This document shows, piece after piece, positions 2,000 to 53,300 of a stretch of DNA of 64,000 nucleotides. A model generated the notes under the pieces. That model was given only the letters and a program-made list of their open reading frames with translations, did no database searches and was not told the origin of the DNA. The position numbers and the translations under genes are program-made. Within the stretch, counting starts at the first letter, position 1, and each line of letters starts with the position of its first letter. This stretch comes from a virus, in the IMG/VR virus record IMGVR_UViG_3300044692_000034, positions 62,001-126,000 of that record; one strand, written 5' to 3'.

Positions 2000-2183
2000 G
2001 TCGCAGAAACGACCGAGGGCCGTGCGGGCATGTGACGTAGACGAGGGATCTTCGCTGGTGCTCTGCCTCTTGAGCTACCCGGTCCTTATGAGACGCGAGG
2101 CAGGATTCGAACCTGCAACCCCCAGCCTTGCCGGAGAACTCATCCACTTCGGCCCGCACGACCCTCGGCTCGTGTGGCGCAGA
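2000..2183 (-). ncRNA. yrlA: Bacterial Y RNA with a permuted tRNA-like domain
   Basis: The ends pair as a long helix: bases 2152-2159 with 2022-2029 (8 bp), a 2x2 internal loop, then 2162-2168 with 2013-2019 (7 bp). Inside is a tRNA fold in permuted order (minus strand): anticodon-stem 3' half GCTGG (2122-2126), 5-base variable region, T-arm GCAGG-TTCGAAT-CCTGC (2100-2116), a 7-bp acceptor-like stem closed by loop TCATAAG (2078-2099), T8-A9, D-arm GCTC-AAGAGGCA-GAGC (2060-2075), and anticodon-stem 5' half CCAGC (2054-2058). Acceptor ends are sealed, so it cannot be charged. This matches published YrlA RNAs, which mimic tRNA and bind Ro60 through the end helix. Its position 5' of a Ro60 gene supports the call. 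A small GTCG/CGAC hairpin at 2000-2013 followed by TGTTTGTT may end it. The 5' end is inferred from the promoter. Confidence 0.88.
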
Positions 2184-2284: not shown

Positions 2285-3271
2285 TCAGCCAACACCATAC
2301 GTCATGAAGAAATGGCCGGGATAGTAATCGACGGTGCCGTAATCGATCGGGGGTGAGCCGTGCCCGATCGTCTTGCCACCGCCGACGTATATCTCCACAT
2401 GGCCGCCGTCCGCCGAGAACATTAGATCTCCCGGCTGCGGGTGCGTCGCGAGCGTGCCCTTCGATATCTGATCGAGCGTGTCGGTCCCGGGGTCTGGCGC
2501 GCCCGCCGCAAGGTAGATGGCCCTCGCCCACTGTGAACAATCTGTGCGGTCCGGTGCCGGCGGCATCGGGTTGTCAGTGAGCGCGCCTTCTTCGCTGTAC
2601 CGGTTGTATCCCGTCTTCGTTGAGAGCGTCGCTTCGGCTGCGCTGATGATCTTGGCGCGGACGCCGGCGAGGTCGCCTACGGCTGCGGCTGCGCCACGGT
2701 ACAGCGCAGCTTTCTCTTCGACTTCACTGACGTACCATTCGGCGTTGTTGTACGCAAGGATCGCCCGGTGGTAGTCCTGCGGCGCGCCGTTCGCCACGAG
2801 CATCCTGGCTGTGGCAGGCACCGCGTCTTTCGGATCGTAGACGTCGCCGCCCTGCCCGTACGCGTCCCACGTACTCGGCGGCCCGTTCTTGATGTTGAAC
2901 TGGCCGGGACCGGCGCAGCATCCGTACGCGTTGACGCCCGAGTGCACACCCGGTGCCGTACTCCGCCCATGGTCTGTTTCGATGCTGTAGATGCCGGCGA
3001 TGATCGCCCAGTCGATGTGGTACTCGTCACCTGCCTGCCTGTACAGCGTCAGCATGTCCGGTGGGATGTCAGCTACTGCGACGGTGCTCGGCGCGTACCC
3101 AACCTGACCACCGCCAAGGCCACCGACGAGCATGCCAGCAACGGCCATCAGGAAGACGTAGACCGTGGCGCAGAGCACGAACCCGGCGAGCAGAGCCTTG
3201 CTAACGAGGCTCGTGTCATCCCAGCGTTGCCGTGCCGCCCGAGCAGCGACGGTGACTTCCATGGACGCCAT
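2285..3271 (-). CDS. T4SS wall hydrolase: lytic transglycosylase plus NlpC/P60
   Basis: 328 aa. An N-terminal membrane anchor (about residues 25-55) is followed by a soluble transglycosylase-like domain (IDWAIIAGIYSIETDHGRS, catalytic Glu near 97) and a C-terminal NlpC/P60 peptidase (RTDCSQWARA with the nucleophile Cys near 240, GGHVEIYVG with the His near 290). This two-domain layout is that of CwlT, Orf14 and TcpG, the enzymes that open peptidoglycan for Gram-positive conjugation channels. The start codon overlaps the previous stop (TGATG). It is the last protein of the T4SS operon before the Y RNA. A phage lysin is less likely because a CHAP endolysin is present at 44740-45552. Confidence 0.85.
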   Translation of the reverse strand: MASMEVTVAARAARQRWDDTSLVSKALLAGFVLCATVYVFLMAVAGMLVGGLGGGQVGYAPSTVAVADIPPDMLTLYRQAGDEYHIDWAIIAGIYSIETDHGRSTAPGVHSGVNAYGCCAGPGQFNIKNGPPSTWDAYGQGGDVYDPKDAVPATARMLVANGAPQDYHRAILAYNNAEWYVSEVEEKAALYRGAAAAVGDLAGVRAKIISAAEATLSTKTGYNRYSEEGALTDNPMPPAPDRTDCSQWARAIYLAAGAPDPGTDTLDQISKGTLATHPQPGDLMFSADGGHVEIYVGGGKTIGHGSPPIDYGTVDYYPGHFFMTYGVG

Positions 3272-3786
3272 CAGCTAAGCCCCGTGACCATCCAGCGGCC
3301 GTGCTTCTCCAAGGTGAGCTTCACAACGTAGTGGCGGTCGTGAGAGTCGAGTACCCATGCGCTCGTCGCCGCTTCGTTCTGCGTGATGTTCTTCACCTGC
3401 ACGAGCAACACCTTTGCCGTCGTTCTCCCCATGCTCGCGGGGGCTCGCGGCGGGTCAGCGAGCAACTGAGCCTTGAACTCAGGCGCGGCGTCGTTTAGGT
3501 CGCCTGGCGCGTTGCCGTACGAGAACGGCAGGTATTCCTTCAAGAACTGGCGCGTTGTATGGCGCGCTCCGGTGGAGTCCGGGTGCACAGGCAAGCCAGA
3601 CAACGTACCCGGAACCGGTGTCCTGACTGGGTCTGGCGGCTTCTCCGGGGCCGGCGTACGTGTCGGCTTCGGGGGCTGCGTCGGGTGCTGCCCGACAGGG
3701 TTCTGCGCGAGGTACCAAGCGAGCAGAGCAACGGCTACCGAGCAGAGCGCGACAGCCGCCGCTTTAGCTCTCGTCGACATTCTCAT
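3271..3786 (-). CDS. Membrane-anchored Pro-rich T4SS accessory protein
   Basis: 171 aa (170 or fewer if the ATG at 3780 is used). One N-terminal membrane segment, an extracellular Pro/Thr-rich stalk (residues 30-60), then a small alpha/beta domain ending in VKLTLEKHGRWMVTGLS. The C-terminal fold resembles the NTF2-like repeats of TcpC/VirB8 proteins, but this is only a pattern judgement. It overlaps the VirB6-like gene by 23 bases and the hydrolase gene by 1 base, so it is made with the channel. No clear named family. Confidence 0.6.
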   Translation of the reverse strand: MRMSTRAKAAAVALCSVAVALLAWYLAQNPVGQHPTQPPKPTRTPAPEKPPDPVRTPVPGTLSGLPVHPDSTGARHTTRQFLKEYLPFSYGNAPGDLNDAAPEFKAQLLADPPRAPASMGRTTAKVLLVQVKNITQNEAATSAWVLDSHDRHYVVKLTLEKHGRWMVTGLS

Positions 3787-5854
3787 CCTCTTCGACGTCC
3801 GTGTCGTCGTCTAGGCGGTCGTCTTGCTCCGTGTGCGTGCTCTCGACAAGCACACGCTTCTTTCTCTTGCTGCGACGCAACCTCCCTACTGCCTCGTCGT
3901 GAAGCTCGCGCGGGGTGCGACCCTCCTTCTGCGCGCCGCCCTCTCTCGTGTCGGCAGGTGTCGGGTCGTCTGGTGCCGTCCCGTCCGTAGCGGTAGCGGA
4001 CCCGCCTTGCGGCACACCCCTCTTGTTCGGATCGTGCTCCGTGCCGACGAGAGCCCACGCCACCCGGTGATTGCCCTTCTCGCCGTTCCCGCCCCCGTCG
4101 TTCAGGGCGGCTAGTTCTTCTTCGGTTGCGTACCGGTACTCGCGCTGACCGCGCTTGCCGCCGGCTCGCTTCCCGCGCCGCACACCGCCCGCTGTGTTAC
4201 GCCCCGGCTTGCTTGCGTCGCCCGGCTCCTCCGGCCAGCGCGGATCGGTGGTCCGCGTCGTCGAGCCACTGTCGAGGACGGCGTCGTCGTCCTCTGTGAT
4301 GTCGTCGTTGTTGCGCTTGCCGGCGTTAGGACCAGCGTCTGTCCCGTTGCCGCGCTGCGTACGGGAGCTGCGGAGCATGGACCGCACCGGGCGCATGGCT
4401 GCGTACATACCTGCGGCCGTGATAGCTGCGCTGCCCGTGCCGAGCCCGGCTGAGCGCCCGTGCGCGGCCTTGGCCAGCTCGTTGACGATGAGCTTGCGTT
4501 TGAGGTACACCGTCCAGAAAAACAACGTCTGGATGATGAACGCGACCTCGAAGCCGGCCCACTGTGTGGAGACGAGCAGAGCGGCGCTGACCCCCATGAG
4601 CACCGCTATGACGATCGCGTAAAAGATCTTGATGAATAGTGCGGTGGCGAGCCGCGTCGCCCACCATTTGACGAGGTCGATGCCGCGCGGGAAGATGCCG
4701 GCGACGAGCACTATGGGAGCGAGCCCGAAGAGCGCGAGCGCGACCACCTGCGCGATTATCACGGTCACAGAGAGACGGCCGAACAGGAGCATGAGAGCGA
4801 TCGCTCCCAGCCCAACAAGGAAGACGACCCTGACTCGTGAGAGCGCGCCGCCGGCTTGCTGGATGTCTACGGCTGCGCTGTCGTTCTTGTCGATCTTGCG
4901 TCCACGGAACTGCGCCGCGTACTTCGGGTCGTCTGGGACCTCTCCGCGTCTGAGTGCGTCGTACTCCTCGTCTCGTGCGTCCGTGCCGGGCGCTTGCCTC
5001 AGGAAGAACTTGGCGTAGCCGCCGTACCCGTTTGTGTCCTGCGTCGTGCTGCTGCGGCACACGTCAGCGAACGGGTTGCCTGGCGCCACCGACAGTGGGT
5101 AGCTGTCGTCTTGCGGCGAGGGTAGGTGCGTGTCGACGCAGTGCTCAAGGCCGCCGAACTCCAGGACGACCCACGGCTTGTAGATCATGATGTCGAACAC
5201 GTGGTCCGTGATGGACGTGCTCGGGTCGTCCCCCTTCTTGCCCACCGCACCGAATCCGTTCAGGAAGCTCGTGCTCACACCGTTAGCGAACTTGACCGCA
5301 CCACCGATGATGTATGTGGGGTTTGAGATGATGACGATGCACGCGACAGTGCATGCCAGCGACAGCGCGAACGCTGCGAAGACCTCGCCGGCTCTGCGTT
5401 GCACGAGCGCTCGCCACATGCCCCACACGCCCGCGCAGATGACCGCGAAGTACAGCCACCCTTGTGCGACGACCTGGCCCTCAAACTGTTGGACAGCTGC
5501 GGCGATAGCAGGCAACGCGCCATGCGGCCCCGTGATCAGCTGGAGATTGAACGCCCACGTGAAGACCTCGATGATCAGATTGAGGCCGTTGCAGATGAGG
5601 TCCCAGCCTTGCTGCGCGAACGATTGCCGCAGCTCCGGCACGATGCCGCCCGGGTTCGTGACACCGAAGTCGACGTGGTAGTCGAGGCCGTAGTTGCTGA
5701 GCGGGTACCTTGCCGCGAGCCCTTGCAGCCCTTGCGTCGGCCCGATGTTGACAAACGGGTCGCTGCCGAGGTATTCGGCGAATGCGCTCGCCGGCCCGAG
5801 TAGGTAGATCCCGAGCAGCCACGCTGCGACCTTGCCGGCTCTGCGTTTGATCAC
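3764..5854 (-). CDS. VirB6/TrbL-like polytopic channel protein
   Basis: 696 aa from a GTG at 5854 whose GTGA overlaps the stop of the VirB4 gene. It has a signal-like N-terminus, a long extracellular loop, and several hydrophobic segments between about residues 120 and 500, followed by a 200-residue charged, disordered tail rich in Asp, Arg, Gly and Lys. Size, topology and position right after VirB4 match the VirB6-type proteins of Gram-positive T4SS (ConG, TcpH, Orf15), which form the membrane pore. Sequence motifs are few in this family, so the call rests on topology and neighbours. Confidence 0.78.
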   Translation of the reverse strand: MIKRRAGKVAAWLLGIYLLGPASAFAEYLGSDPFVNIGPTQGLQGLAARYPLSNYGLDYHVDFGVTNPGGIVPELRQSFAQQGWDLICNGLNLIIEVFTWAFNLQLITGPHGALPAIAAAVQQFEGQVVAQGWLYFAVICAGVWGMWRALVQRRAGEVFAAFALSLACTVACIVIISNPTYIIGGAVKFANGVSTSFLNGFGAVGKKGDDPSTSITDHVFDIMIYKPWVVLEFGGLEHCVDTHLPSPQDDSYPLSVAPGNPFADVCRSSTTQDTNGYGGYAKFFLRQAPGTDARDEEYDALRRGEVPDDPKYAAQFRGRKIDKNDSAAVDIQQAGGALSRVRVVFLVGLGAIALMLLFGRLSVTVIIAQVVALALFGLAPIVLVAGIFPRGIDLVKWWATRLATALFIKIFYAIVIAVLMGVSAALLVSTQWAGFEVAFIIQTLFFWTVYLKRKLIVNELAKAAHGRSAGLGTGSAAITAAGMYAAMRPVRSMLRSSRTQRGNGTDAGPNAGKRNNDDITEDDDAVLDSGSTTRTTDPRWPEEPGDASKPGRNTAGGVRRGKRAGGKRGQREYRYATEEELAALNDGGGNGEKGNHRVAWALVGTEHDPNKRGVPQGGSATATDGTAPDDPTPADTREGGAQKEGRTPRELHDEAVGRLRRSKRKKRVLVESTHTEQDDRLDDDTDVEEDENVDES

Positions 5855-8298
5855 GTCGCCATCTGCCTTGCGCGTTCGGCGGGGTTGGTGTTGAGCTGCC
5901 GCAGGAGGCGCGGGCTGGAGACGTCGATCTGAGCGCGAACCACGTGCCCCCAGATGTCCTTCACGAAGCACTTGCCTTCTCGTGCTTCGACGATCATTTG
6001 CGCCAGCTCGTCGTTGTCGGGGTCGAGGTTGAGTAGCGCGAGCGCGTCGCGTGCCTCCTCCAGCGTCTCCATCCCGAAGATGTAGAACGTGCCGATGAGT
6101 TTGACGATCTCACCCGGGTCGGCGATGTGCTGCGACGCGATGAGAGACGTAGCGAACTTCGCGCGGCCTTGCCTGACAATGTCCCAGATGAGCCGGCGGC
6201 CACTCGGCGTGGCAAGCAGGAAGTGAGCCTCGTCGAGCAGCAGCGTCTTGTGGATCGTGCGGTCATTGTTGATGAGCCGCATGGCGAAGTATGCGATGAG
6301 CCTGAGGGTCGCAACGCTCAGCCGTTCGATCTCGTCGTAGTCGGCGCGACTGACCATGCTGTCCGGGAGCACGAGCGCGCTCGGCCGGATCACCGTGACC
6401 TGCGCACGGTCAATGAACTGGCGTTCGCCGTTGGAGAACGCGAGCCGGGCGAGCCCTGCCGCTGCGCGTGTGCCGAGCGCATCGCCGGCGGCGTTGGCGT
6501 CCTCTCCTGCCGACGTCCTCATGAGCAGGTCGATAACGGCTTGCGCACATGGCTTCTCCATCTCGGCGACGACCTGCGCTGCCTTACGCACCTGCGTACC
6601 CCACGTCGACGGCACGTTCGTCGGTAGCAGCTCCATGAAATACGAATAGGCGCCGTCAACGACCTGCGACCTCGGCAGGACCAGAAATGGATCGAGGAGC
6701 CCAGCGTACATCACCGGGTCGTCCAGATCTACGACTTCCACACGGCCCTTGAGTTCGTCAACCTCCTCCAAGTGGTGGTCGGGCTTCGGGTCGACGTCAA
6801 CGATCTGGCCGCCGGAGAGCGCGTCCCCCACCGCCATCAGCTCCGCCGCCGTGGTCTTACCAGACCCCTGCGTACCGGCGAGCAAGTACGCGCTCGCGCG
6901 GTTCTCCTCGGGGGCGCGGCGCAGGTCGTTGAACAGTGGCCGCTCGTGCCCGTGTTTCGGGCTACGTCGGTCGACGTACCCGATGTACGTGCCGCTCCGC
7001 GAGCCGAGATCGTGCGTGGCAATAGGCATGAGCGTCGCGAATTGCAGCGGCGTGAGCCAATCGCGGTAGTGCGTGACTCGGCCGCCGTCGACGCGTGGCA
7101 GGTGGTCGTAGAACGCCCGCTTTTGCGTCCCGACGGGCAGCCACAACTTCACGGTGCCGAACAAAGCCCGCAGCTCCGAGATCTTCGCTTTGACCTCGTT
7201 TGTGGTCTTGCACCCGCCGATAGCGAACGACACGCTCGTGCGGAGCAGCGGCGGTTGGTCACTGCGCCGGAGCCGCATGTCAAGCCGGCGAGCCTGCCGC
7301 GCGTCGTCCTCGGACGCCCATGACTTCGCGCCGGCTGCGCTCTCGTCCTCATCGCTGAGAACGTTGTCGGCATCGCGGACCTTGCGCTGCACCCTCGAGA
7401 TGGCCTGAGAGTTCGCCTCCCACTCCACATGCATGACCATGTCAACCGGGAAGCTCGCACGCTCCAACGGCGTGAACAAGAACTCCGACTCGCCGGGGAA
7501 GATCGTCTCGTCGGGGAGCGCACCGAGGTACAGGATCGCTTGCCACAGGACGCCCTCTTCGGTGCGTGCCTGGAGGAACCCCTCGGCGTTGCGGATCGGC
7601 TCGTTCCCGAGCGAGAGCATGTCCGTCCCGAGCGGCACGTAGGCGTCATGCCCGTCGTCGGTTTCGACGACCAGGGCGTTCGGCTCCCAGTAATCGTCGA
7701 GTGGTGGCTCGCCGTGCCCGCGATACGCGGCCCGCCGGAAAAGCCATTGCAGCTCTCGGGTGGTGGCACGCCGCGCCGGCAGCCGGTCCGTCACCGTGGC
7801 GTGCATTTCTTCTTCGGCCTCGATAAGACCGTTGATCTCGGCCTTGCTGATCGGGCGGAGCTTGCCGACACCAAGCGCGTCCTCGGCCGTCGCCCGGACG
7901 CGTTCCATGTCGCGGCCGAGCGCCACACCGAACCCGTCGGTTGCTTCGGTCACGATCCTCGGGATGAGGTAGAACTCAGGGAAGTACGCCTTGCGGCCGT
8001 TGATCTTGTCCTTGTGCTGCTCGACGAACTGGCGGAGCAGCTTCTCAGTCTTGTACCGGTTGTCGAGGTTCCGTAGTGCCTGCTGGACGTACGCCTCGAC
8101 CTCGTACTCGCGGTTGACGCGGTACAAGGAGTAGTCGGCCTTGACGTCGTGCGTGAACAACTGGAGCCGCGACGCCCACGAACCCTTGTCGCGAAGGTAC
8201 GGGTAGCTGATCGGGTTGACGCGGTAGATAGCGCCGCGCTCAGCGCCGCGACCGACAAGGATGTTGCCGTGCGCGTATCGCAACGGGAACTTGTTCAC
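5851..8298 (-). CDS. virB4: VirB4-type conjugation ATPase
   Basis: 815 aa, hexameric ATPase that powers T4SS assembly or transfer. The C-terminal RecA-like domain has Walker A AGTQGSGKTT (around residue 480), Walker B LLLDEAHFL (around 690) and the downstream FATSLIASQH motif. The N-terminal half is the less conserved VirB4/TcpF domain. GTGA/ATGA-type overlaps join it to genes on both sides. It could be confused with the related VirD4/FtsK coupling ATPases, but there are no N-terminal membrane segments, and its place between TcpE-like and VirB6-like genes fits VirB4. Confidence 0.9.
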   Translation of the reverse strand: MNKFPLRYAHGNILVGRGAERGAIYRVNPISYPYLRDKGSWASRLQLFTHDVKADYSLYRVNREYEVEAYVQQALRNLDNRYKTEKLLRQFVEQHKDKINGRKAYFPEFYLIPRIVTEATDGFGVALGRDMERVRATAEDALGVGKLRPISKAEINGLIEAEEEMHATVTDRLPARRATTRELQWLFRRAAYRGHGEPPLDDYWEPNALVVETDDGHDAYVPLGTDMLSLGNEPIRNAEGFLQARTEEGVLWQAILYLGALPDETIFPGESEFLFTPLERASFPVDMVMHVEWEANSQAISRVQRKVRDADNVLSDEDESAAGAKSWASEDDARQARRLDMRLRRSDQPPLLRTSVSFAIGGCKTTNEVKAKISELRALFGTVKLWLPVGTQKRAFYDHLPRVDGGRVTHYRDWLTPLQFATLMPIATHDLGSRSGTYIGYVDRRSPKHGHERPLFNDLRRAPEENRASAYLLAGTQGSGKTTAAELMAVGDALSGGQIVDVDPKPDHHLEEVDELKGRVEVVDLDDPVMYAGLLDPFLVLPRSQVVDGAYSYFMELLPTNVPSTWGTQVRKAAQVVAEMEKPCAQAVIDLLMRTSAGEDANAAGDALGTRAAAGLARLAFSNGERQFIDRAQVTVIRPSALVLPDSMVSRADYDEIERLSVATLRLIAYFAMRLINNDRTIHKTLLLDEAHFLLATPSGRRLIWDIVRQGRAKFATSLIASQHIADPGEIVKLIGTFYIFGMETLEEARDALALLNLDPDNDELAQMIVEAREGKCFVKDIWGHVVRAQIDVSSPRLLRQLNTNPAERARQMAT

Positions 8299-8855
8299 GC
8301 ATACACCTCCAGCCGCTCACCGTCTTTGACGTCAACTTCTTGTAGCTCGCCGGCTGCGTCTGCTCGCAGCGTCACACGAGTGTTCTTCATTGCGACCCTG
8401 ACGGGGGCGTTGGTCCTGACCTTGGCGGGGCCGTGTACTCGGCCACGGCGCAGCTCAGCACCCGAGATGTCCCACCGCACCGGCAAATCCTCCTGCCACT
8501 CCTCCCACGTCTCTTCCTCCTCGGGATTGTCGCGTAGGGCCTGGACGGTGCGCGCCCAGAGGTAGATGTGGATGGACCGGCCGTCGGGCGCTTCCTGGCG
8601 TGCCGCAAACGCCACGATGACAGCCAACGACCCGTATCTGAACCACCCGGGCATGAGCCCCATGACGAGCCCCGTACCCGGCGTGTGCGACAGCAGGTAC
8701 ACCACGAGAACCGTTCCGAACACCCAGGCTGCGGTCTGCGCCGGGATGCCGCCGGGGACCATCTTTGTGAGGTCGAAGTCCCATACGCGCCGGATGCGCC
8801 AATCGGTCCTGAAGACGCGTCTGTACGAGACGACGCGTATGCGCCGTTGCTTCAC
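8295..8855 (-). CDS. TcpE/PrgI-like membrane protein
   Basis: 186 aa from a GTG at 8855 (GTGA overlap with the previous stop). A short basic cytoplasmic start (FRTDWRIRRVWDFDLTKMVPGGI) is followed by two close hydrophobic segments (about residues 40-85) and a soluble tail with beta-strand content. This matches TcpE/Orf16/PrgI-type proteins, the small inner-membrane partners of VirB4 in Gram-positive systems. It lies directly before virB4, as is normal. Longer readings upstream are the wrong frame. Confidence 0.75.
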   Translation of the reverse strand: MKQRRIRVVSYRRVFRTDWRIRRVWDFDLTKMVPGGIPAQTAAWVFGTVLVVYLLSHTPGTGLVMGLMPGWFRYGSLAVIVAFAARQEAPDGRSIHIYLWARTVQALRDNPEEEETWEEWQEDLPVRWDISGAELRRGRVHGPAKVRTNAPVRVAMKNTRVTLRADAAGELQEVDVKDGERLEVYA

Positions 8856-9193
8856 GAGGTGCCGGCGATCTTGTGCCCGATCGCGGTGACCATGTTGACG
8901 ATGCTGCCGCCGTCGAACACGAACATGCCCGTGATGATCACGGCCGCGATGTAGCTGATGATGATCCCGAGCTTGCGTGCGCCGGGAAACAGGAACGCGA
9001 GTGCACCTGCGGCGACTGCCGCCTTCCACGGGGTCTTGACGTTGTCGAGGACCCAGTTGCCGGCGTTCTCACCGTAGTTCGCGTTGTCGGTTGGGTCGGC
9101 GAGCACGATGGCGGGACCGAGCGCTGCGACCATTGCCATCGCCATGAGCAGCAAGAACACGCGCCGCCCCATACGAGTCACTTGCTGCATCAC
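8852..9193 (-). CDS. Small T4SS membrane protein, pilin-like (VirB2/TcpD position)
   Basis: 113 aa with a cleavable-looking signal peptide ending near ALGPAIVLA and two further hydrophobic segments (about residues 58-75 and 76-98). Topology and size match VirB2-like pilins or TcpD-type proteins that sit between TcpC and TcpE genes. There is no diagnostic motif, so the exact role is inferred from order and shape. Translationally coupled on both sides. Confidence 0.65.
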   Translation of the reverse strand: MMQQVTRMGRRVFLLLMAMAMVAALGPAIVLADPTDNANYGENAGNWVLDNVKTPWKAAVAAGALAFLFPGARKLGIIISYIAAVIITGMFVFDGGSIVNMVTAIGHKIAGTS

Positions 9194-10050
9194 TTATCTC
9201 CTTCGTTCACTTTGGCTACGTACCAGCGGTCGCCCTTGACCAGCACGAGCCGATACCCGAGCGAGTACGACGCATCGTCCTCTTTTGCTGTCACCGTCGC
9301 GTACACCTGCCGCTCTCGTCCCTTCGCCGGCGCGAGCAGCCCGACACTGTTCACCTGGACGAGCTTCATCACGACAGGGCTCGCGCCGAGCTGCGCACCC
9401 GGGAGCGCCGGGCCGGCAGAGACGGCGTCTGCGTCGCCGGCAAGGTACGCCGTGAAGAACCTGTTGACGACGTCGAGTATGTCGCTCGACTCGTCGGGGC
9501 TGAGCTGGTCGAGGTCGTCGTTGTTGGGGGTGGCAACGAGCGGCGCGCTTGTCAGGCTCGGCAGCGCGTACACGACCAGCCCGTGGTTCTTGTCCGTCTC
9601 TACGGGCACGCCGAGGTATCTCGTCACAGCACGCCCGTTAGCCTGCATGGTCACAGCGACTGTGATGAGTGCGCGCTGCGACCCGGTCGTCGTCTCGTCA
9701 GACACGGCCGTGGCTTGCACGACCTGCGCCGGGGCCTTCTCGCCCCAGGTGGGGACCACGCGAGCACCAAGATTCGTCGAGACGAACGACTCAAGGTCCT
9801 GCTCGTAGAACCCGGGGTGCTTCGGATTGTACGAGAAGTACGTTCGCGCGAAGTCCATGGCGTACGCGCGAGCTGCATCGTCAGGCCACTGCGAACGCTG
9901 TTCTACGACCTTCGTTGGTCCTGCCGGCTTCGTCGGCGTTGTCGCAATAGCCGTGAGCCCCCGGAGCGCGATGATCACCAGGACGAAAGCGACCAGTCCT
10001 CGGCCTGCCTTCTTGGCGTACCCCTTGAGCTTCGTGCGCGTTGCCGCCAT
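9190..10050 (-). CDS. TcpC-like (VirB8-type) conjugation protein
   Basis: 286 aa. One membrane segment (about residues 18-35) and an outer part with two repeats of NTF2-like alpha/beta folds, the second starting near DILDVVNRFFTAYLAGD and ending in GDRWYVAKVNEGDK. These are the features of TcpC/Orf13/ConH, the bitopic core protein of Gram-positive T4SS. It is the first gene of the seven-gene transfer operon and has a strong ribosome binding site (GGAGAGGA). Confidence 0.8.
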   Translation of the reverse strand: MAATRTKLKGYAKKAGRGLVAFVLVIIALRGLTAIATTPTKPAGPTKVVEQRSQWPDDAARAYAMDFARTYFSYNPKHPGFYEQDLESFVSTNLGARVVPTWGEKAPAQVVQATAVSDETTTGSQRALITVAVTMQANGRAVTRYLGVPVETDKNHGLVVYALPSLTSAPLVATPNNDDLDQLSPDESSDILDVVNRFFTAYLAGDADAVSAGPALPGAQLGASPVVMKLVQVNSVGLLAPAKGRERQVYATVTAKEDDASYSLGYRLVLVKGDRWYVAKVNEGDK

Positions 10051-10104
10051 CCAATCCTCTCCGTGTTGGTGGCCGCTACATGATGCGGCGTTCGTTCGGT
10101 GAGG

Positions 10105-10139
10105 TGATGGTAGCCGGTCTGTCTAAGCCGCGACCATCA
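10105..10139 (-). promoter_or_regulatory. Hairpin in the leader of the T4SS operon
   Basis: A 7-bp perfect inverted repeat (TGATGGT/ACCATCA) with a 21-base loop sits 55 bases before the TcpC-like start. No poly-U tract follows, and I found no convincing promoter in this 106-base gap. It may be a weak terminator of the upstream gene or a leader structure. Confidence 0.35.
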
Positions 10140-10156
10140 TGAAACGGTGCGCATGC

Positions 10157-10420
10157 TTACATCGGCGGGATGGGTGGGCTGCTAGGCGGCCCAAGCGACT
10201 GTGACGCTTGCCACTGCCGCGCACGTTCCTCTGAGACGACACCGTGCCCCTTGCAGAAGTGACACATGATCGTATAGCGGCGGCCGGTGCCCGGCTCCTC
10301 CCTGCGCTCCACACCACCCTCACAGCATGGGCGCGGGCACTTGACGGACCCGCTCCCCAGCAATGCCGCCAAGTACCCGCCGGGCACGATACCGACGTTC
10401 TCGCTCATGCCCATCGCCAT
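10157..10420 (-). CDS. Small zinc-ribbon protein
   Basis: 87 aa. Two cysteine knuckles (KCPRPCCEGG and MCHFCKGHG, residues about 27-60) resemble a DnaJ-type central zinc ribbon; the C-terminus ends in a Pro/Ser tract. Start ATG at 10420 has AGAGGTAGG upstream; in-frame ATGs at codons 3 and 5 are possible. Function unknown. It lies between the secreted transglycosylase and the T4SS operon. Confidence 0.6.
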   Translation of the reverse strand: MAMGMSENVGIVPGGYLAALLGSGSVKCPRPCCEGGVERREEPGTGRRYTIMCHFCKGHGVVSEERARQWQASQSLGPPSSPPIPPM

Positions 10421-10439
10421 GCTGTGACCTACCTCTCGG

Positions 10440-11036
10440 CTAGCAGCCGACCCAGGCGCCGGCCCCTTGTTCCTTGTAGATGCGTGCCGCGCACGCGTCC
10501 TGGTCTCCTGGCACGTTCACGTCCAAGCCTTGGCAGACGCCGCCGGGCGAGTAGTGCGACCTGAGCGTCTGCCACCGGCCCGTTGCCCCCGACGAAGGAT
10601 TGGTGTTCGCCGGCCCCGTCGAGTAGTTGCCGTGAGACTCGTCCGCGCACGCCGGCAAGTTGGCGGCCACCCCGGACGAGACAACGCCGCTCGGTGCCTG
10701 CGGCGCGCCCATGGTGCGTGTGAGCAGCGGCGGCCCCGGCCACGGCACGCGCGCGCGCAACGCGCGGAGCTGCCGCAACGACTGCGCGATCTCGCCGCAG
10801 TGCGATGGCCTGATCTTGTGCGCACCGCTGTGGTAGCGATACCTGACCCCGAGGCGCCGGATGTTCCTGCCCGGTGCCCTGCGCCCGAACTTGTGACGTA
10901 CGGCGTAGTACTGCGCCGAGTAGTCCACGAGGAGTTTCCTCTCTCCGCAGACGGTGTGGCTCTGTTGCGTCGCCGCTTGCGCTGACCCTGTATGGAGCGC
11001 AGCGGTCGCAACGAGGACCGCTGTTAGCAGCCTCAT
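10440..11036 (-). CDS. Secreted Rpf-like transglycosylase
   Basis: 198 aa. Sec signal peptide (residues 1-22, ending ...GSAQA) and a C-terminal lysozyme-like domain of the actinobacterial resuscitation-promoting-factor type: a Cys-Ala-Asp-Glu-Ser start with the likely catalytic Glu in ADESHGNY, then SGATGRWQTL and a closing CAARIYKEQGAGAWVGC. It would cut glycan strands outside the membrane. The ribosome binding site is strong (GAAGGAGG). Its position next to the transfer operon suggests a second wall-opening activity for the channel, though a role in phage entry or host revival is possible. Confidence 0.75.
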   Translation of the reverse strand: MRLLTAVLVATAALHTGSAQAATQQSHTVCGERKLLVDYSAQYYAVRHKFGRRAPGRNIRRLGVRYRYHSGAHKIRPSHCGEIAQSLRQLRALRARVPWPGPPLLTRTMGAPQAPSGVVSSGVAANLPACADESHGNYSTGPANTNPSSGATGRWQTLRSHYSPGGVCQGLDVNVPGDQDACAARIYKEQGAGAWVGC

Positions 11037-11110
11037 TCACCGACCTCCTTCGTTGGAAGCGGCGGACGCTAGCAGCCCTTATCTGTGCATGTCCATCAGC
11101 CATATGGCCA

Positions 11111-12994: not shown

Positions 12995-13017
12995 GCCCTG
13001 CTCCTCTCCAGAGACAG

Positions 13018-13045: not shown

Positions 13046-13070
13046 TCAGCGTGCGTGTCCTGGCGTACGG

Positions 13071-22129: not shown

Positions 22130-24952
22130 CTAACCGCAGCCGGTGTTGTGCGTGGGGTCCCTCTGGCACGTCCAGCACGTACCGGTACGCACCATGACTC
22201 CGCCGCAGTGGCACGGCTTGGTGCCGGTGGGTCGCAGCTCCACGACCTTGCCGCTGAGCGGTACGGCCGGAAACTTGCCGTTCTTGTGGACGATGTCGAC
22301 GAGCGGTTCGCCACCCACGAAGAACGCCGGCCCCGTCTTCTCTACCTCCTGCGCGTCAAGGCGCGCGGTCATCGTGGCCTTGACGTCGTCGGTGAGCACG
22401 CCGGCTTCCTCTGCGTCCGTGACGCTGCCGTAGCGCGCCATGAACCAGCGCCAGATGTAGTCCGGCACGCTCGATGCGTTCCAGATCTCCGGGTTGCTCG
22501 TCTCACCCCGGGGCTCGAACTCCTCGCCGATGAACTGGTGTGCGAACTGCTCGGCCGGGACGCCGTACTGGAGCCCGACGCTCACGGCCTTCGCCCAGCA
22601 GCCCAGCATGCCGCTGAGGAACGACCCCTCGTTCCCGAACCCGTTGACGAAGATCTCGCCGGGCGTGCCGTCCTCGTGGTGACCGACGGTCAGGTACCCC
22701 TTGTGGCCGCCGACCGTGAACTTGTGCGTCACGGACGTGCGGGTGTCGGGAAGCCGGCGCCGTTGCGGCAAGTACATCGCCACATCGGCCTCGGCAGCCG
22801 TCTCGGCAGGACTGTTCTTCTTGATGTGCGTGAGCGCTGCCGTGACCTTGCTGTTGTCACGGAAGACGCTGATGCACTTGGCGCCACCCTTCCATGCCCT
22901 CACGTAGCAGTCGAGCACGTCCTCGCGGGTCGCCACCTCGGCGAGATTGACTGTCTTGCTCGGCGCGCCGGAGAGGAACGGTTGGATCGCGCAGACCATG
23001 TCGATATGCCCGTGCGCGTGGATGTCGTTTGCGCAGTCGAAGACCCGCCGGTCGCTGTCGACGATGAGCGAGTGGAATCGGTCGAGGTCGTTGCTGATCA
23101 GCGCCTCGACTGCCTCTTCGATGACGTCCGGGAGGTACCCGAGCCGATCCATGGCACGCCCCACCGCACGATTGACGATGATGACGCTGCCGCCGCCCGC
23201 GAGGCCCTTGTGCTTGATGAGCGAGAAGTCAGGCTCGCAGCCGGTGGTGTCGCAATCCATCAGGTGCGACACCGTGCCGGTCGGGGCGATGACGGTCACC
23301 TGCGAGTTGCGGTAGCCGCCCACGTCACCGAACTCCACCGCGTCGGACCAGTCGTCGACGGCAGCGGCCCACAGCGGCGTCGGCATCTCGGCGCGTGACA
23401 GCGCACTGTTGTGCTTCGAGATGACGGCGCGGTGCGTCGCCTTGTTCTCCTCGTAACGGTCGTACGCGCCGAGGGATTGAGCGAGCACAGCGCTGCGCCG
23501 GTACGAGCGGCCGGTGAGCAGAGCCGTGACGCTCGCGGCCATGTCCCGACCCTCAGGCGAGTCGTACGCGAGGCCCTGGCACATGAGCAGCGCGCCGAGA
23601 TTGCTGTAGCCGAGGCCGAGCTGCCGCAGCTCACGCGTGTTCTTGTCGATCTGTGGGGTGGGGCCTTCGGAGTATTCGCAGCAGATGTCCATCGCCGTGA
23701 TCAGGATGTCGATCGTGTGCCGGTATCCGTCGACGTCGAAAGACCCGTCGCTGTTCAGGAACTTGAGCAGATTGATCGATGCGAGATTGCAGGCAGAGTC
23801 CTCGTTGAGCCACGTCTCGGCGCACGGGTTGCACGTCGTGATGGGGCTGTACTTGCCGTGTAGGTACGGTGTCGTGTGCCACTCGTTCGCACGGTCAAGG
23901 AACACGAGCCCGGGGTCGCCGCAGACCCACGCGGCGTCCACAGCCGTCCTGAGCAGGTCACCGGCGTTGACGGTCTGCACCGTGTCGCCCGTGACGCGCG
24001 CCGTGAGCGACCACTGGTCCGTCGTGCTCATCCCCGTGGCACGCCGCATGAACTCATCCGATGCTCCGACTGAGAGGTTCGCGTTCTGAAAGCTCGTAAC
24101 CTCCGCGATCGTCTTTTCGCCCTCGGGGGTGAACGGATCGATGTTGTGGCCGGCGTCCCTGAGCGTGCGCATGCGGCCGTCTTCGCGGCGCTTGCACTCG
24201 ATGAAGTCGAAGATATTCGGATGGTCGGCGTCTTCGATGACCATCTTCGCTGCTCGGCGGTGCGCGCCGCCGGACTTGAGCGTGCCGGCATTGGCGTCCC
24301 CGAGGCGCATGTACGACGTCGGGCCGCTCGCGTAGCCGCCCGTGCTCAGCGTCTCCATGTCACCACGCAGTGCACTGATGTTGACGCCCGAACCGGCGCC
24401 GGACTTGAAGATCGCAGCCTCGGTGTTGACCCAATCCATGATAGAATGCTGGCCCTTGCCGCCCATCTTCTCGCCGAGCATCGTGTCCTCGATGCGAAGG
24501 AGGTAGCACGCGCTCGCGCACTGCCGGCGCCCCGGCACGCCCAGGTTGAGCCACACCGGCGTGTTGAACGCAGCCATCTGGTGGAGCAGGATGTAGCTCA
24601 GCTCGTCGAAGAACGTCAGGGCCGCCGACGCGTTACGCCACGCACCGTCGCCCGTCGGGTCGCCGAAGTACCCGGCGTTGTAGCCCCAGATGGTGATCTG
24701 CTCCACTACGCGCCGGACCATCGACCGGACGCTGTTCTCCTTCGCGCCGTTGACAGTTGCGAAGTACAGCTTGGCGGAGACGCCGACCGCTTTGGGGCTC
24801 CAATCGGCGGGGTACTCGACGTCCTTCTGCGAGAAGTCGCCTAGCTCGGCGTCGCCACGAGCCCAGGAGATGTCGTTGTAGGGGTTGCTGCCCTTCTTGG
24901 TGAAGCGCCGCCCAATCGGCACTTTCTTCTTCGGTGTGTCTAGAGCTGTCAT
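22130..24952 (-). CDS. nrdJ: Class II (B12-dependent) ribonucleotide reductase
   Basis: 940 aa. Reduces ribonucleotides to deoxyribonucleotides with adenosylcobalamin as radical source. The active-site block NPCAETWLNEDSACNLASINL (Asn, Cys, Glu) is intact, the substrate-site cysteine lies in RRQCASACYLL, and the redox-active C-terminal pair is in CHCGGVMVRTGTCWTC. Length and the late TSVTHKFTVGGHKGYLTVG block fit the NrdJ group. Start ATG at 24952 (MTALDTPKKK); a reading from 25042 overlaps the upstream gene. Phages use this to supply dNTPs; class II enzymes need no separate R2 subunit and no iron centre. Confidence 0.95.
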   Translation of the reverse strand: MTALDTPKKKVPIGRRFTKKGSNPYNDISWARGDAELGDFSQKDVEYPADWSPKAVGVSAKLYFATVNGAKENSVRSMVRRVVEQITIWGYNAGYFGDPTGDGAWRNASAALTFFDELSYILLHQMAAFNTPVWLNLGVPGRRQCASACYLLRIEDTMLGEKMGGKGQHSIMDWVNTEAAIFKSGAGSGVNISALRGDMETLSTGGYASGPTSYMRLGDANAGTLKSGGAHRRAAKMVIEDADHPNIFDFIECKRREDGRMRTLRDAGHNIDPFTPEGEKTIAEVTSFQNANLSVGASDEFMRRATGMSTTDQWSLTARVTGDTVQTVNAGDLLRTAVDAAWVCGDPGLVFLDRANEWHTTPYLHGKYSPITTCNPCAETWLNEDSACNLASINLLKFLNSDGSFDVDGYRHTIDILITAMDICCEYSEGPTPQIDKNTRELRQLGLGYSNLGALLMCQGLAYDSPEGRDMAASVTALLTGRSYRRSAVLAQSLGAYDRYEENKATHRAVISKHNSALSRAEMPTPLWAAAVDDWSDAVEFGDVGGYRNSQVTVIAPTGTVSHLMDCDTTGCEPDFSLIKHKGLAGGGSVIIVNRAVGRAMDRLGYLPDVIEEAVEALISNDLDRFHSLIVDSDRRVFDCANDIHAHGHIDMVCAIQPFLSGAPSKTVNLAEVATREDVLDCYVRAWKGGAKCISVFRDNSKVTAALTHIKKNSPAETAAEADVAMYLPQRRRLPDTRTSVTHKFTVGGHKGYLTVGHHEDGTPGEIFVNGFGNEGSFLSGMLGCWAKAVSVGLQYGVPAEQFAHQFIGEEFEPRGETSNPEIWNASSVPDYIWRWFMARYGSVTDAEEAGVLTDDVKATMTARLDAQEVEKTGPAFFVGGEPLVDIVHKNGKFPAVPLSGKVVELRPTGTKPCHCGGVMVRTGTCWTCQRDPTHNTGCG

Positions 24953-48203: not shown

Positions 48204-50308
48204 TACGGCGTTCGGAGGAGGAACGACCGGGGAACGACGTCGACCTGAAGGCACCCTGAGTACGATGCCTGGTCTGAACCGGTCGTGGAGTCAGGGTTGT
48301 CAGGGACGAGGTTCGATGGCTTGATGAACCACTGCACGAGCCCGGGGGGTGGCTCGATGAGCGTGCCGCCGAGCCCCGTGTCTCGCTGCCCGGCGGGCCA
48401 CGGCCTACTCAGTGCGGAGTTGTACGTGATGCCGGCAAGGTCCCAAGTCAACTTCTTGGTGATCTCGTTATTCGTCCGGACCCACGACGGGTACACGCCT
48501 CCTTGCGTCGATTTGGCTGTCGGGCCAAGAGCCCGTTGCCTGATCGGCACGCAGATGATGTAGTTGATGCCGAAGTTGCCGGTGGATCCCGCACCGACAG
48601 ACCCTTGGAGGTCAAGTATGACGCCGGATGGCTCGACAGGATCACAGAACAGCGTGATCGTGCCTATACGCGTCAGCCTGTACACGTCCCCAGACGAAGG
48701 CGTGACGACCGGCGATCCTTCTGTGCCGTATTCGTCTGTGTAGACCGTTGCGCCGTACGAGGCAACGGTCGGTTTCGCCGACAACATCATCGTCGGGTTG
48801 ACTAGTCCGGGGTTGAGCTTGAGTCCAGCCCAGACCTCAAGAATCAGGTCATGCTGCGTGAAGTCGTCTGGAGACAGCAGCGACGGCGTAACGTTCCACG
48901 TAGCGTGAACCGTGGTAGCGCCCGACACATTGACCTCGGCGACACTGCCCCTGAATGCATTTGCGTCACTAGTTGACGTCAGGCCGCTCAGAGTCCTCCC
49001 GTTGATTGCAGAGTCCTCGGCTATCAGTAGCCCGAACGGGACCCTGTTGATACCGAAGTCCGTCTGAGCCCAGCTCACGAGCATGAATGCAGGCGGGTCG
49101 TCAGCAGTCTGCGACGTGATAAGTAGGTCTGCCTTCGCCGGGGCGGTACCGGGGATCTCGTTACCGAACCACGAGTACGTCGGAACGAACCCGGCGGGGT
49201 CGAACGGCAAGAACTGATTTGCCGAAACGAACGGGCAGAATTCGAAGTAGTTGATCTTTCCGCCCGTTGACCCCGGCTCCCAGGAGAATCCGATCCCCCC
49301 TTCGGGCATGGCAACCTTTTCGGTTGGCGACAGCGTGTACCCAGTTCCGCCGGTGGCAGCGTACGTCGTGACCGGAGTAGGAAGCCCTGTCTTCCAGAAC
49401 GACAAGATGAAACCGTCCTGGGATGCCTGTGCCAGAAGCCAACAGGTCGTGTTCGCCGGAATCCCCGAAAGAATGTTCACCGTCGCCCTATTGACGCGAA
49501 CGTTGTTAGTTACTACGTCGATTTTGATCGCACCAGGGCCGGCGCCCGTGTAGTCGGCGTAAAGCTCTATGAATGTCACAGCCGACACGATGCGCATGGC
49601 AATCCCTGCCTTCCATGACGCGTTCATCACGGGCGGCGTTGTAAAGCTGAGTAGGGCTTGACCCTCTCTCCACGTGTAGCCTCGCGCGGTGTGCCTGAGG
49701 CGCCGGTATTCAGTTGATGTCGATCCGGCATCGACGAGGGTTCCGTTCGAGACCAGCGTGTGCTCTGGGGTGCCGGCATCGAACACGTAGTCATCGAGGA
49801 TGTCGTCGTATGCGAAGCGGTCGCGGATCGTGCATGGCGCCCACAGGCCAAGCGGTTCCGTAGGGAACGTGATCGCGACGCGCATCGAGTTCGTCTGCAC
49901 GAATTCGACGGGGTTGTACGCGGGTGACCACGTACCGGGACCCATGATGACGAAGAACGTCGAAAGGCCGCCCTCTGGAGCCCATTCGACCATCCTCCCT
50001 ACGGCTGCGCTGTTCATGACGCGCAGGAGCGTCTCAACGTTGGCTGTGGCCTGCGCCAACGTATTCCCCTTGACGTACGCGGTCCAGGCGATAGCGCCGT
50101 TGTCGTGTGTCTCGCCTACGCTCAGAGACCCTCCGTACCGACGCGAGCGGGAGCTGTTCTGCTGCGTGCTCACACCGGGCGTGAAGGTGAAACCAGCGTC
50201 CCTGTCTCTGAAGTATCCGGTTGCGGAACCGGAGGCAGAGTTTAGGTCTAGGAGCGGAACGACTCGGCCGCCGCCATCAACGGTGACCACGCGAAGTGTG
50301 TCGGCCAC
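48203..50308 (-). CDS. Minor (distal) tail protein
   Basis: 701 aa. The N-terminal 180 residues (GYFRDRDAGFTFTPGVSTQQ...RMVEWAPEG) match the distal-tail-type fold, followed by beta-rich lectin-like segments with many Gly, Ser and Thr. Located right after the tape measure gene, as is typical of siphophages. Start codon at 50308 overlaps the tape measure stop. Confidence 0.72.
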   Translation of the reverse strand: MADTLRVVTVDGGGRVVPLLDLNSASGSATGYFRDRDAGFTFTPGVSTQQNSSRSRRYGGSLSVGETHDNGAIAWTAYVKGNTLAQATANVETLLRVMNSAAVGRMVEWAPEGGLSTFFVIMGPGTWSPAYNPVEFVQTNSMRVAITFPTEPLGLWAPCTIRDRFAYDDILDDYVFDAGTPEHTLVSNGTLVDAGSTSTEYRRLRHTARGYTWREGQALLSFTTPPVMNASWKAGIAMRIVSAVTFIELYADYTGAGPGAIKIDVVTNNVRVNRATVNILSGIPANTTCWLLAQASQDGFILSFWKTGLPTPVTTYAATGGTGYTLSPTEKVAMPEGGIGFSWEPGSTGGKINYFEFCPFVSANQFLPFDPAGFVPTYSWFGNEIPGTAPAKADLLITSQTADDPPAFMLVSWAQTDFGINRVPFGLLIAEDSAINGRTLSGLTSTSDANAFRGSVAEVNVSGATTVHATWNVTPSLLSPDDFTQHDLILEVWAGLKLNPGLVNPTMMLSAKPTVASYGATVYTDEYGTEGSPVVTPSSGDVYRLTRIGTITLFCDPVEPSGVILDLQGSVGAGSTGNFGINYIICVPIRQRALGPTAKSTQGGVYPSWVRTNNEITKKLTWDLAGITYNSALSRPWPAGQRDTGLGGTLIEPPPGLVQWFIKPSNLVPDNPDSTTGSDQASYSGCLQVDVVPRSFLLRTP

Positions 50309-53300
50309 TACACCACCCCGAGGCTGATACGAGACGCCGAACGAGAACCCTGATAGCCGAGCCCGCTTGTCACGGTCTTTCCGATTTGCGTCAGCATGGC
50401 GGGGTCGCCTGGTGTCAGCGTGTTGATGTTGTTCACAATGGTTGTGCCGCTGCCAGTGCCGCCGAAGAGGTCGACGCCCATGGCTGCGGCCTTGCCGGCG
50501 AGCGCCGGAGAGACAGACGGAACGTTCGGGCCGCCGTAAGCGCCCACCGAATTCGGGTTGTTGACACCGCCGAGCACACCGACGCCCGACTGGTTGATAT
50601 ATCCGCCGTAGCCGACGATCTGCTGGAGCCGGTTAGCTTGGTCGAGTTGCGCTTGCTGGTCGGCTGTGAGCCCTGTCGTTTCGGTTGTGTCGGGGGGCTG
50701 CTGCTTCGAGTCTTCGTAGTTCTGGTCTTGGATCGACCGGTCCGGTGCTGTCATGGCGACGCTCTGGCGCTCTTGCGCAATGTCAAGAACGTCGAGGCGT
50801 GCATCTTCGATGTCGAACGGCAAATCGCCGGCAATGTCCTGCCAGTTCTTCATGTTCGCCTTGTAGTGGCTGATGCTGGCGCGGATCCCGGAGCGGTCCT
50901 TTTGCTTGGCGTGCGTGAGAGAGTTCGTCAGATTCGTGATGATCGTGTCGTACGTTGCGATGATGCGCTTGACGACGTTGTATGCCTCTTCGAGCTTGTG
51001 CCAGATCGCGATGCGCAGGTTGTAGAGGTCGGTCAGCTCATTGACGCGCTGGTTGACCTCGTCGACGTTCACGTCTCCGGTCGTCTCGTTGACGAACGTC
51101 TCCTGACTCTGGCCGTACGCGCGGTCCTTCTGCGTGTACTGCTTCTGCATCGTGTCAAGCTGCGCCTGAACCTTGTTGTACGCCGTGATGTTGTCGCCTG
51201 TGACCTTCCTCAGGGAACCCACGCTGTACGGGTTTCTCGCGCCACTCGTTCCGAGCACGCCACCGGCTGCGAACTTACGAACCTTTCCGCCCATTGCACG
51301 TCGCATAGCCCCACCACGCGCCATGAACTGACGAGCTTGAGATGCAACCTGGTCGTAGCGTGCGGGGAAGGCGCTGCGCTGCACGGCTTGCGCGAGCGAG
51401 CCCGCCGAGCCACGCCACGGCCGGTGCGACTCCGCAGCCCTGAAGTAGTCCTCCGCCGCGAGGAGCGGGATGCCGGCATGCTTCCAGCCTTGCGACGGCC
51501 GCTGCTGGAACACGCCGATGGAGTCGCGGTCGCCGTAACCGAGGTTCTGGACGCCGGACTCAACGATTGCTGCTTCCCATCCCGACAGCTGCTCAACCGG
51601 TGACGCCTTAGTGACCTGGATGGCCTTGCGAATCGCTGCGACGACAGCCGGGTCCGGGTGGATCTTGCCGCCATCTCCAGAGAACGAACCCGTCACGCCA
51701 CCCGAGGCGGACGCTGACGCCAGAACGCGGTTCGCTACGCCAGTAGCCACCTTCAAGACCTGGTTGGCGAGCGCGCCAACCGCACCACCATTCTTGACCT
51801 TCGGCTGCGGTACACGTGGGAGTGCCGCTGCGGCGCCTGCGCTCGTGGCCGAGCTGGCATCCACGCCCATCACGGTGCCCTTGTCCTCGCCCTCGTGGAT
51901 GTGGTCAGGCGTTCCGCCCGGATAGTCGCCGACAGTGCCGAGGTTCTGGCCACGACTCACACGCTGGCCGACCTTCACGGCCCTGGACCCGAAGTGCGTC
52001 AGGAAGTACGTGGCTTTGTTGTCGCCGCTCAGGTACATGGACCAGCCGAACGGACCTCCGGCGCCCTCGTACGCGCCTGCGCTCGGGCTACGGCCACTGA
52101 ACCGCGCGATGGTGCCGCCAACCGGCGCGCCCACCCGCTCACCCGGCTTGCCGAAGACGTCAATGGCCGGATAGCCGGGCAGACCGGCCGTCTGGTGCGT
52201 CGGCGTGAAGCTGGCTGGAAGCTGGAGCATGCCGCCACCGGCGTAGTGCCGCATGCCAGAGCCCCACAGTTGCGAGAGGCTGCCCCAGGGGAGTCCGCCT
52301 GCCGCCTGAGTAAACCCGAGCGCGTAGTCCAGGATTTGCATCTGCGGCTCGTTGACGACGCCTTCGGTGCCGCTCATGGCTGCGACCGGACGCCCTGTGG
52401 GGTCGAGCAGGATGTGGTCGTCTGCGCTGGAGCCGCCGTAGGGGCTTGCCATGCCGCCGTGCGCGTTGGCTTTGACGCGCGGCTGCGTGCCGGTTCCGGT
52501 GGGGCCGGCGCTGCCTTCCTCGGGGCCACCAATGTACGACTGCCCCTTGACAATGTTCTTGGCTTCGCTGATGGAGAATCCGTAGACCTCCATCTCCTGC
52601 TCAAGGTACTGTCGGACCTGCGTGAGCCCCGCCTTGGTCGTCTTACCGGCCCGGTCCATCTGCTTCTTGATGGCGTCGGCTGCGGCGGAGAAGTTGGAGG
52701 CGAGTTTGTCTTTGCCTTGCGCGCTGAACGAGTCGAGGTCGTCGCGCACGAGCGTCATGTTCTGTTGAACGAACTTGTGGATCTGCTCCGTGCCGTCCTT
52801 GGCGCTGATCGAACCGTCGTGCATGCCGTCTTTGACGGCCTTGATCCCAATGCCGATGTTCTTTGACATCGCCTCGGACCACGACTGCGAGCCCTGCTGG
52901 AACGCCTTGTTGATCTCGTCCGTGTTGAACTTGATGTTGTCGCGGAGGTCCTTGATGTTGAGGACGCCCTGCTCACGGATCTTGTTGAAGTTCCCGAACA
53001 GCTCCGCTGCGGCACGCGGGTCGAGGATGTCCTGCGCGCGGATCTGCTTGAACGCTCGCGGGAACCTGCCGAACTGGTCCTGAATCCCCTGGATCGTCGG
53101 CTTCAGGTTCTCGAATTGCTTCTGGAGGTCCTTGAGGGTCGACTTGTTGAGCTTCTGGATCTCGTCAACGCTGAGCCCGAGGACCCTGCTCAACGCCGAG
53201 AGGTCCTCGTTACCTGCCTTGCCGGCGATTGCGCGGGCGAACGCCCCGCTGATCTGGTTGACGTTCGTGAACGGCGCCGTCTGGATGACCTGGTTCGGGT

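Follow-up and report, generated by a model that had tools for sequence, protein, structure and literature searches.

A predicted Tcp-type type IV secretion operon and a TraB-like ATPase in a tailed-phage genome, with a possible role in cell-to-cell spread

Background

Spread in particles and spread by conjugation usually count as distinct strategies. Among Gram-positive conjugative elements, the MPF_FA/Tcp systems (pCW3 tcp, Tn916, plasmid CP025942, pTHECO01) encode, in this order, TcpC, a small protein, TcpE, VirB4/TcpF, a VirB6-like protein and a hydrolase. The Streptomyces protein TraB moves double-stranded DNA and is considered a type IV coupling protein that acts without other parts of a type IV secretion system (T4SS) (PMC12857230; also PMC3583192). 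A few phage-related elements touch on conjugation as well. The Streptomyces plasmid-phage pZL12 has been described, as relayed by later papers, to transfer conjugatively via tra genes (Zhong et al. 2010, via PMC3583192, PMC7157519), phi1207.3 is a conjugally transferable prophage (PMC4260502), and in phage-plasmids a switch from particles to conjugation has been described as accompanying phage gene loss (PMC10879196). For phage SPP1, an early protein resembling VirB4 and FtsK, gp32, has been suggested to build a translocon together with membrane proteins (PMC6316719). Here we describe a seven-gene operon on the minus strand at positions 2285-10050 of a 64,000-nucleotide stretch (hereafter the window, bases 62001-126000) of the 141,737-base virus record IMGVR_UViG_3300044692_000034, which is predicted to encode a T4SS of this type within a tailed-phage genome. 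The remainder of the record was retrieved, and genes were called throughout with a hexamer model trained on the record itself.

The type IV secretion operon

All seven frames are open (Table 1), and from TcpC to the hydrolase the successive genes overlap by 4, 4 (GTGA), 4, 4, 23 and 1 nt, so that the overlaps run through the whole predicted operon, as expected of translational coupling. By their predicted products the genes constitute a Gram-positive MPF_FA/Tcp-type set. The original prediction had read the same interval as seven overlapping T4SS genes, which Pfam, NCBIfam, plasmid-derived profiles and the overlaps of 1-23 nt all support. Profiles built solely from conjugative plasmids and Tn916 were run against the predicted proteome of four phage contigs (486 proteins), and in this record each matched only the gene proposed for it (VirB4 1.1e-102, VirB6 1.6e-19, TcpC 7.7e-8, hydrolase 4e-7, and TcpE, in its full frame, 5.9e-4). 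Together with Pfam and NCBIfam, these matches bear out the identities given earlier to VirB4 and to the TcpC-like, VirB6-like and hydrolase proteins.

The VirB4 ATPase also matches the NCBIfam model TcpF (9.3e-50, under the strict cut-off of that model), and its Walker A (GTQGSGKT) and Walker B (LLLDEAH) motifs are intact when aligned with plasmid VirB4 proteins. TcpC matches a solved structure of the TcpC family, 3ub1, at 3.2e-4. The VirB6-like protein scores 101 bits against an NCBIfam cut-off of 120, and hhalign aligns it to its plasmid counterparts with 98.7% probability over 358 columns. The hydrolase combines a membrane anchor (segment 28-46), an SLT-like region and an NlpC/P60 peptidase, and reaches 96.4% with its plasmid counterparts by hhalign.

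The small components are less clear-cut. For the pilin-like protein, the hydrophobic segments and an operon position like that of plasmid small membrane proteins fit the earlier call, and the TrbC match is weak and below the curated cut-off. The TcpE-like call is likewise upheld in part: its position and its sole profile match agree with it, the Pfam match stays below the cut-off, and its start had to be moved to 8855, which creates the GTGA overlap with the upstream gene. For the 171-aa protein, previously called a stalk protein, we found no sequence support for that name. Its gene occupies the position of the small proteins of plasmid operons, and hhalign did not show homology for it; a membrane helix (residues 5-28) was placed by a low-confidence alignment-free model, which with a mean predicted local distance difference test score of 48 is too poor to use. 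The protein is possibly VirB8-like.

The operon is flanked on one side by a Ro60/TROVE gene and on the other by a transglycosylase gene followed by DUF5131. No integrase, excisionase or relaxase of an integrative and conjugative element (ICE) was found around it, and the operon, as far as its gene content tells, is not an integrated ICE. The tetranucleotide distance of the block to the record average is among the smallest; its G+C content at third codon positions (GC3) is slightly lower (~0.77-0.87 vs mean 0.85) and its codon usage mildly different. There is no compositional junction around the operon, in line with the earlier remark that it shares strand and gene style with the phage genes.

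An assembly chimera of a phage with a plasmid or ICE deserves hardly any credence. In its favor, the searches turned up no other contig sharing these junctions, but the flanking genes have the same strand and style without a compositional step, integration and relaxase genes are lacking around the operon, unlike around Tn916 in the Streptococcus prophage IPP61, and T4SS cassettes occur in three independently assembled contigs of a second phage lineage (see below). The same absence of ICE integrase, excisionase and relaxase genes and of a junction, and the same three contigs, disfavor the chimeric integrative element suggested in the original prediction.

Table 1. Predicted features of the operon and of the phage record (window positions unless marked as record)
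Feature	Coordinates	Strand	Length (aa)	Evidence and remarks
TcpC / VirB8-like channel protein	9190..10050	-	286	First operon gene; Pfam TpcC 5.5e-19, near-full profile
Pilin-like small membrane protein, VirB2/TrbC-like (weak)	8852..9193	-	113	Pfam TrbC 0.0023, below curated cut-off
TcpE-like membrane protein	8295..8855	-	186	GTG start; Pfam TcpE 8.4e-4 (shorter frame), below cut-off
VirB4/TcpF ATPase	5851..8298	-	815	AAA_10 1.7e-46
VirB6-like polytopic membrane protein	3764..5854 (frame open to 5971)	-	696	NCBIfam CD3337/EF1877 5.8e-29
Small membrane protein	3271..3786	-	171	N-terminal membrane helix, proline-rich linker, C-terminal domain
VirB1-like wall hydrolase	2285..3271	-	328	NLPC_P60 1.1e-5 (above cut-off), SLT_2 0.046
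Secreted transglycosylase-like protein	10440..11036	-	198	Pfam Transglycosylas 5.3e-4; 389 nt upstream of operon, membership uncertain
FtsK-family ATPase, TraB homologue	record 140224-141594 (outside window)		456	Walker A GEPGSGKS, N-terminal hydrophobic segments
Portal	record 131121-132854			9.3e-36
HK97 major capsid	same record as operon			1.4e-30
S78 protease	same record as operon			1.8e-21
TerL	record 43000-44652			2.7e-6
Phage tape-measure protein	50308..56481	-	2057	PHROG tape measure 2.8e-54; anchors virion module
Class II ribonucleotide reductase (phage nucleotide metabolism)	22130..24952	-		Pfam Ribonuc_red_lgC 1.4e-110; same strand as operon

A TraB-like ATPase and a proposed role

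The window contains no coupling protein, as noted earlier, and a TraB-like FtsK-family ATPase is encoded beyond it. This protein appears to be a homologue of the Streptomyces plasmid double-stranded DNA transfer protein TraB. It shares 36% identity over ~310-320 aa with the pSVH1, pFP11 and pSTS2 transfer proteins (E ~1e-42 to 1e-47), whereas its matches to actinophage FtsK proteins are much weaker (1e-12 to 1e-15). A TraB profile matched it alone among the 486 proteins (2.9e-50), and the NCBIfam model plasmid_TraB gave 4.7e-13, below the equivalog cut-off and thus indicating homology at the family level only. An FtsK tree separated little at depth, and the TraB affinity is read from these scores. 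TcpA-type coupling-protein structures (6o1w-6o1z) were also matched, at 1e-3. The gene starts 143 nt from the end of the record, which may therefore be incomplete.

We consider a relaxase-independent T4SS channel, driven by the FtsK/TraB-type ATPase and moving phage DNA between cells, to be the most likely role of these genes, with chances that we judge to be evenly balanced. VirB4, TcpC, TcpE, the VirB6-like protein and the small membrane proteins would assemble into a membrane channel in an actinobacterial host, and the SLT/NlpC hydrolase would open the wall. The membrane-anchored ATPase of the phage would serve as coupling motor, pumping double-stranded phage DNA into a neighboring cell or hyphal compartment without a relaxase, and virions would then be complemented by conjugative, contact-dependent spread as a second route of the phage. 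This proposal fits best because an operon in plasmid order, a TraB-family pump and virion genes coexist, and because an analogous second lineage exists. Since substrate, coupling and expression are inferred, our confidence in it is limited. Some phages may thus use conjugation, in addition to virions, to pass between cells.

A second phage lineage with a T4SS cassette

The original prediction had proposed a search for the same block in related phages. No close relative of the record with the operon was found, and an unrelated lineage turned out to carry a divergent cassette. A profile scan of IMG/VR yielded a 25.9-kb contig, through whose VirB4 two more were reached, of 60.9 kb (66%) and 80.7 kb (69%). 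The three come from three different metagenome datasets, were assembled independently and belong to a lineage unrelated to this record. All of them carry genes for pilin-like, TcpE-like, VirB4, VirB6, small membrane and SLT hydrolase proteins; TcpC was not detected in them. The locus of the cassette is conserved, between lysis genes and a Prim-Pol/D5 replication gene, and the cassette adjoins holin and endolysin genes. The 80.7-kb contig also encodes an SPP1-type portal (1.5e-20) and an HK97 capsid (2.5e-19), and its cassette is inverted at the same locus relative to that of the 60.9-kb contig. In the two larger contigs, G007 and G005, the cassettes (48844-56228 and 7274-14532, respectively) have opposite orientations with respect to holin and endolysin.

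No link between the small components of this record and those of the second lineage was found by hhalign, and their equivalence is judged from position and topology. The second-lineage small protein at the position equivalent to that of the 171-aa protein is predicted by modelling to adopt an NTF2-like fold, as VirB8 proteins do.

Across the second lineage the cassette proteins are 33-69% identical, and nonsynonymous divergence (dN) is below synonymous divergence (dS) in the cassette genes, except for the pilin-like gene, where the two are about equal in one pair; the ratios are rough, synonymous divergence being high. The tail and replication genes compared also have dN below dS. The T4SS cassette is thus apparently under purifying selection. 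This bears on the idea that the operon of our record is only a passenger, a plasmid fragment of recent capture or in decay that does nothing for the phage. Its single known copy for this record, slightly lower GC3 and slightly different codon usage would suit such a fragment, but the seven frames are intact and coupled, the catalytic motifs are present, the tetranucleotide profile is among those closest to the record average, and the second-lineage cassette persists over the divergence just given with dN mostly below dS. We therefore find a passenger very improbable.

The two larger contigs further encode an HNH-FtsK fusion ATPase (G005:37107-38774, G007:21469-23136), whose best relatives are the FtsK proteins of the linear Streptomyces plasmids NZ_CP109057 and NZ_CP050694 (E 1e-26 to 1e-34). 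These plasmids also carry the cassette that comes nearest to the second lineage in VirB4 and VirB6. Because the relatives of FtsK, VirB4 and VirB6 lie in the same plasmids, channel and motor of this lineage appear to share a plasmid source. A possible function of the fusion protein is that of a nuclease-motor substitute for relaxase and coupling protein. In a VirB4 tree the second lineage groups with NZ_CP109057/NZ_CP050694 (support 100/100), and this record with another Streptomyces plasmid, L009 (82/85). The placement of the two lineages with different plasmids implies at least two T4SS acquisitions, and capture of such systems by actinophages appears to be recurrent. Virion genes and a T4SS operon thus coexist in two unrelated phage lineages, each with an FtsK-family DNA pump.

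The location beside holin and endolysin in the second lineage also recalls a different use of the channel. It could be real and serve protein export or a surface or membrane role, such as superinfection control, killing of competitors or envelope remodelling, with the ATPase acting separately inside the cell. The negative searches for four relaxase families and for an origin of transfer (oriT) reported below agree with this, as do the occurrence of FtsK-like proteins in many phages without a T4SS and the translocon with membrane proteins proposed for SPP1 gp32 (PMC6316719). However, the phage cassettes are most closely related to conjugation cassettes of plasmids, the second lineage retained the FtsK type of the same plasmids, and beside the operon we identified no candidate for an effector. 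We regard such a non-DNA role as rather unlikely, although it is the foremost alternative to DNA transfer.

Transfer functions that were not found

Several observations weigh against a DNA-transfer channel. Relaxases of the families Replic_Relax, TrwC, Relaxase and Rep_trans (PF13814, PF08751, PF03432, PF02486) were not found in the record, in a search that covered these four families in a record that may be incomplete, whereas the Streptomyces plasmid with the nearest VirB4, L009, has a Replic_Relax gene near its T4SS. No recognisable oriT or clt repeat cluster was present, a search for 8-mer repeats giving no tight cluster. The 8-mer GACCCGGA, which we take to be the TRS motif of TraB binding, is scattered and unclustered in the phage, unlike the clt/TRS repeats that TraB binds; the phage ATPase may recognise another sequence. 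Pfam scans of most genes named no integrase, ParA/ParB or plasmid initiator, an absence that counts for little in a mostly unannotated and possibly incomplete genome. As no integrase or partition gene was named, a carrier state from which to conjugate lacks support, as does the phage-plasmid status suggested in the original prediction. The TraB-like gene lies ~68 kb from the operon at the contig edge, which leaves its link to the T4SS channel conjectural. Many actinophages have FtsK-like proteins of different origin, and TraB-type proteins move plasmids without a T4SS. Finally, no close VirB4 relative was found in IMG/VR or GTDB genomes, and one copy is known for the lineage of this record.

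The missing relaxase could also mean that a phage-plasmid performs ordinary relaxase-driven conjugation of single-stranded DNA, with relaxase and oriT past the contig ends or of an unrecognised family. The linear record without end repeats, the TraB-like gene so close to its end and the Replic_Relax gene of L009 would all be compatible with this. Nevertheless, TrwC, Relaxase and Rep_trans were not found in the second-lineage contigs either, although all of these sequences may be incomplete; the ATPase belongs to the TraB type, whose action on double-stranded DNA requires no relaxase; and around the plasmid cassettes related to the second lineage no relaxase is annotated within the stretches seen. 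This explanation seems improbable to us, more so than a non-DNA role of the channel.

The phage genome and its host

The record is linear, without terminal repeats, and carries ~200 genes, almost all of them minus-strand. As expected of a tailed phage (Caudoviricetes), this one record encodes TerL, portal, protease, HK97 capsid and tape measure. The siphophage-like nature read earlier from the window, which holds the tape-measure gene, is supported by the portal, HK97 capsid, S78 protease and TerL genes of the flanking record. The host is likely an actinobacterium, because the capsid resembles those of Rhodococcus, Gordonia and Mycobacterium phages (~36-42% identity). RecT, a PD-(D/E)XK nuclease, Ku and methylases are also encoded. 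TerL lies ~86 kb away from the portal gene, which is unusual since tailed phages commonly have both adjacent. A 199-aa protein adjoining TerL (record 44830-45429, minus strand) resembles by eye a proteasome-like Ntn hydrolase. A second Phage_portal match, a weak one (6.5e-6), was obtained with a small protein of the record, and blastp with the portal failed to locate the gene.

The Ro60/TROVE gene adjoining the operon (window 38-1792, minus strand) matches vWA_Ro60 at 3e-49 and TROVE at 1.7e-34. In the 492-nt gap upstream of it lies a YrlA Y RNA-like match (window 2056-2124, minus strand; 31 bits, E 9.8e-5, gathering score 69), and the two likely form a phage-encoded Ro60-Y RNA module beside the T4SS operon.

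Scans of IMG/VR with the VirB4, portal, capsid, TerL and ribonucleotide reductase of the record either failed to return any contig or returned ones that were short or distant, and VirB4 was not detected in the available parts of the portal and capsid relatives. A peptide-pattern scan of GTDB genomes gave no relative of either VirB4 type. Among known phages, VirB4 matched only IPP61, where Tn916 lies inside the prophage, and unverified Enterococcus contigs, and there was no match for TcpC or for the second-lineage VirB4. The Enterococcus phage Efs 1-1-1 records (OR846592, OR846645, OR846672) are unannotated, carry VirB4 and chromosomal-type FtsK genes and resemble host DNA. The PHROG match of VirB4 is an unnamed family, phrog_24614, which may derive from Tn916 copies in phages.

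Comparison with known systems

It seems possible, at somewhat less than an even chance, that actinophages have repeatedly captured conjugation channels together with FtsK-family motors and so gained a second, virion-independent route of infection, in which double-stranded phage genomes would pass through a phage-made T4SS to adjacent cells or hyphae and receptors would be by-passed. Should the channel indeed carry phage DNA, this route would escape receptor-imposed limits on host range, and double-stranded transfer of the Streptomyces type would be united with T4SS conjugation in a single element.

With respect to TraB-based transfer, the phage homologue (456 aa) is shorter than the TraB proteins of pSVH1, pFP11 and pSTS2 (760-772 aa), and the spd/DUF2637 genes that adjoin traB in these plasmids were not identified in the phage. 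Conversely, pSVH1-type transfer has no T4SS operon, whereas the phage has one. The linear Streptomyces plasmids NZ_CP109057 and NZ_CP050694 have FtsK near a VirB4-VirB6-small-C40 cassette, with no annotated relaxase and no annotated phage structural genes in the stretches seen, and they are not the plasmids with the nearest VirB4 to this record. Both are typed non-mobilizable by MOB-suite, possibly wrongly.

Among phage-related elements, transfer of pZL12, according to the accounts relayed in later papers, depends on a major tra gene with two neighbors and not on a T4SS operon (PMC3583192, PMC7157519), and no VirB4 was found in pZL12 (NC_013420) by tblastn or profile. No TcpC, TcpE, VirB6 or hydrolase set has been described for SPP1 gp31.1-gp32, which we liken to our system by description only. 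The prophage IPP61, the only annotated phage record with a comparable set, has VirB4, VirB6-like, NlpC and TcpC genes too; it holds the entire Tn916 with integrase, excisionase and regulators, whereas this phage has the channel operon alone and no ICE. In the open-access literature searched, with partial coverage, there was no report of such an operon as part of a phage genome.

The operon resembles the MPF_FA/Tcp systems, which give profile matches for five of the phage components. The gene order is that of a Streptomyces plasmid, Thermobacillus pTHECO01 and a B. subtilis plasmid, and the phage VirB4 is only ~24-26% identical to the VirB4 proteins of such plasmids. Unlike these elements, the operon lies in a phage genome, without the four relaxase families and with no coupling protein beside it. 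The plasmid-type T4SS is itself known, and what is new is its viral context.

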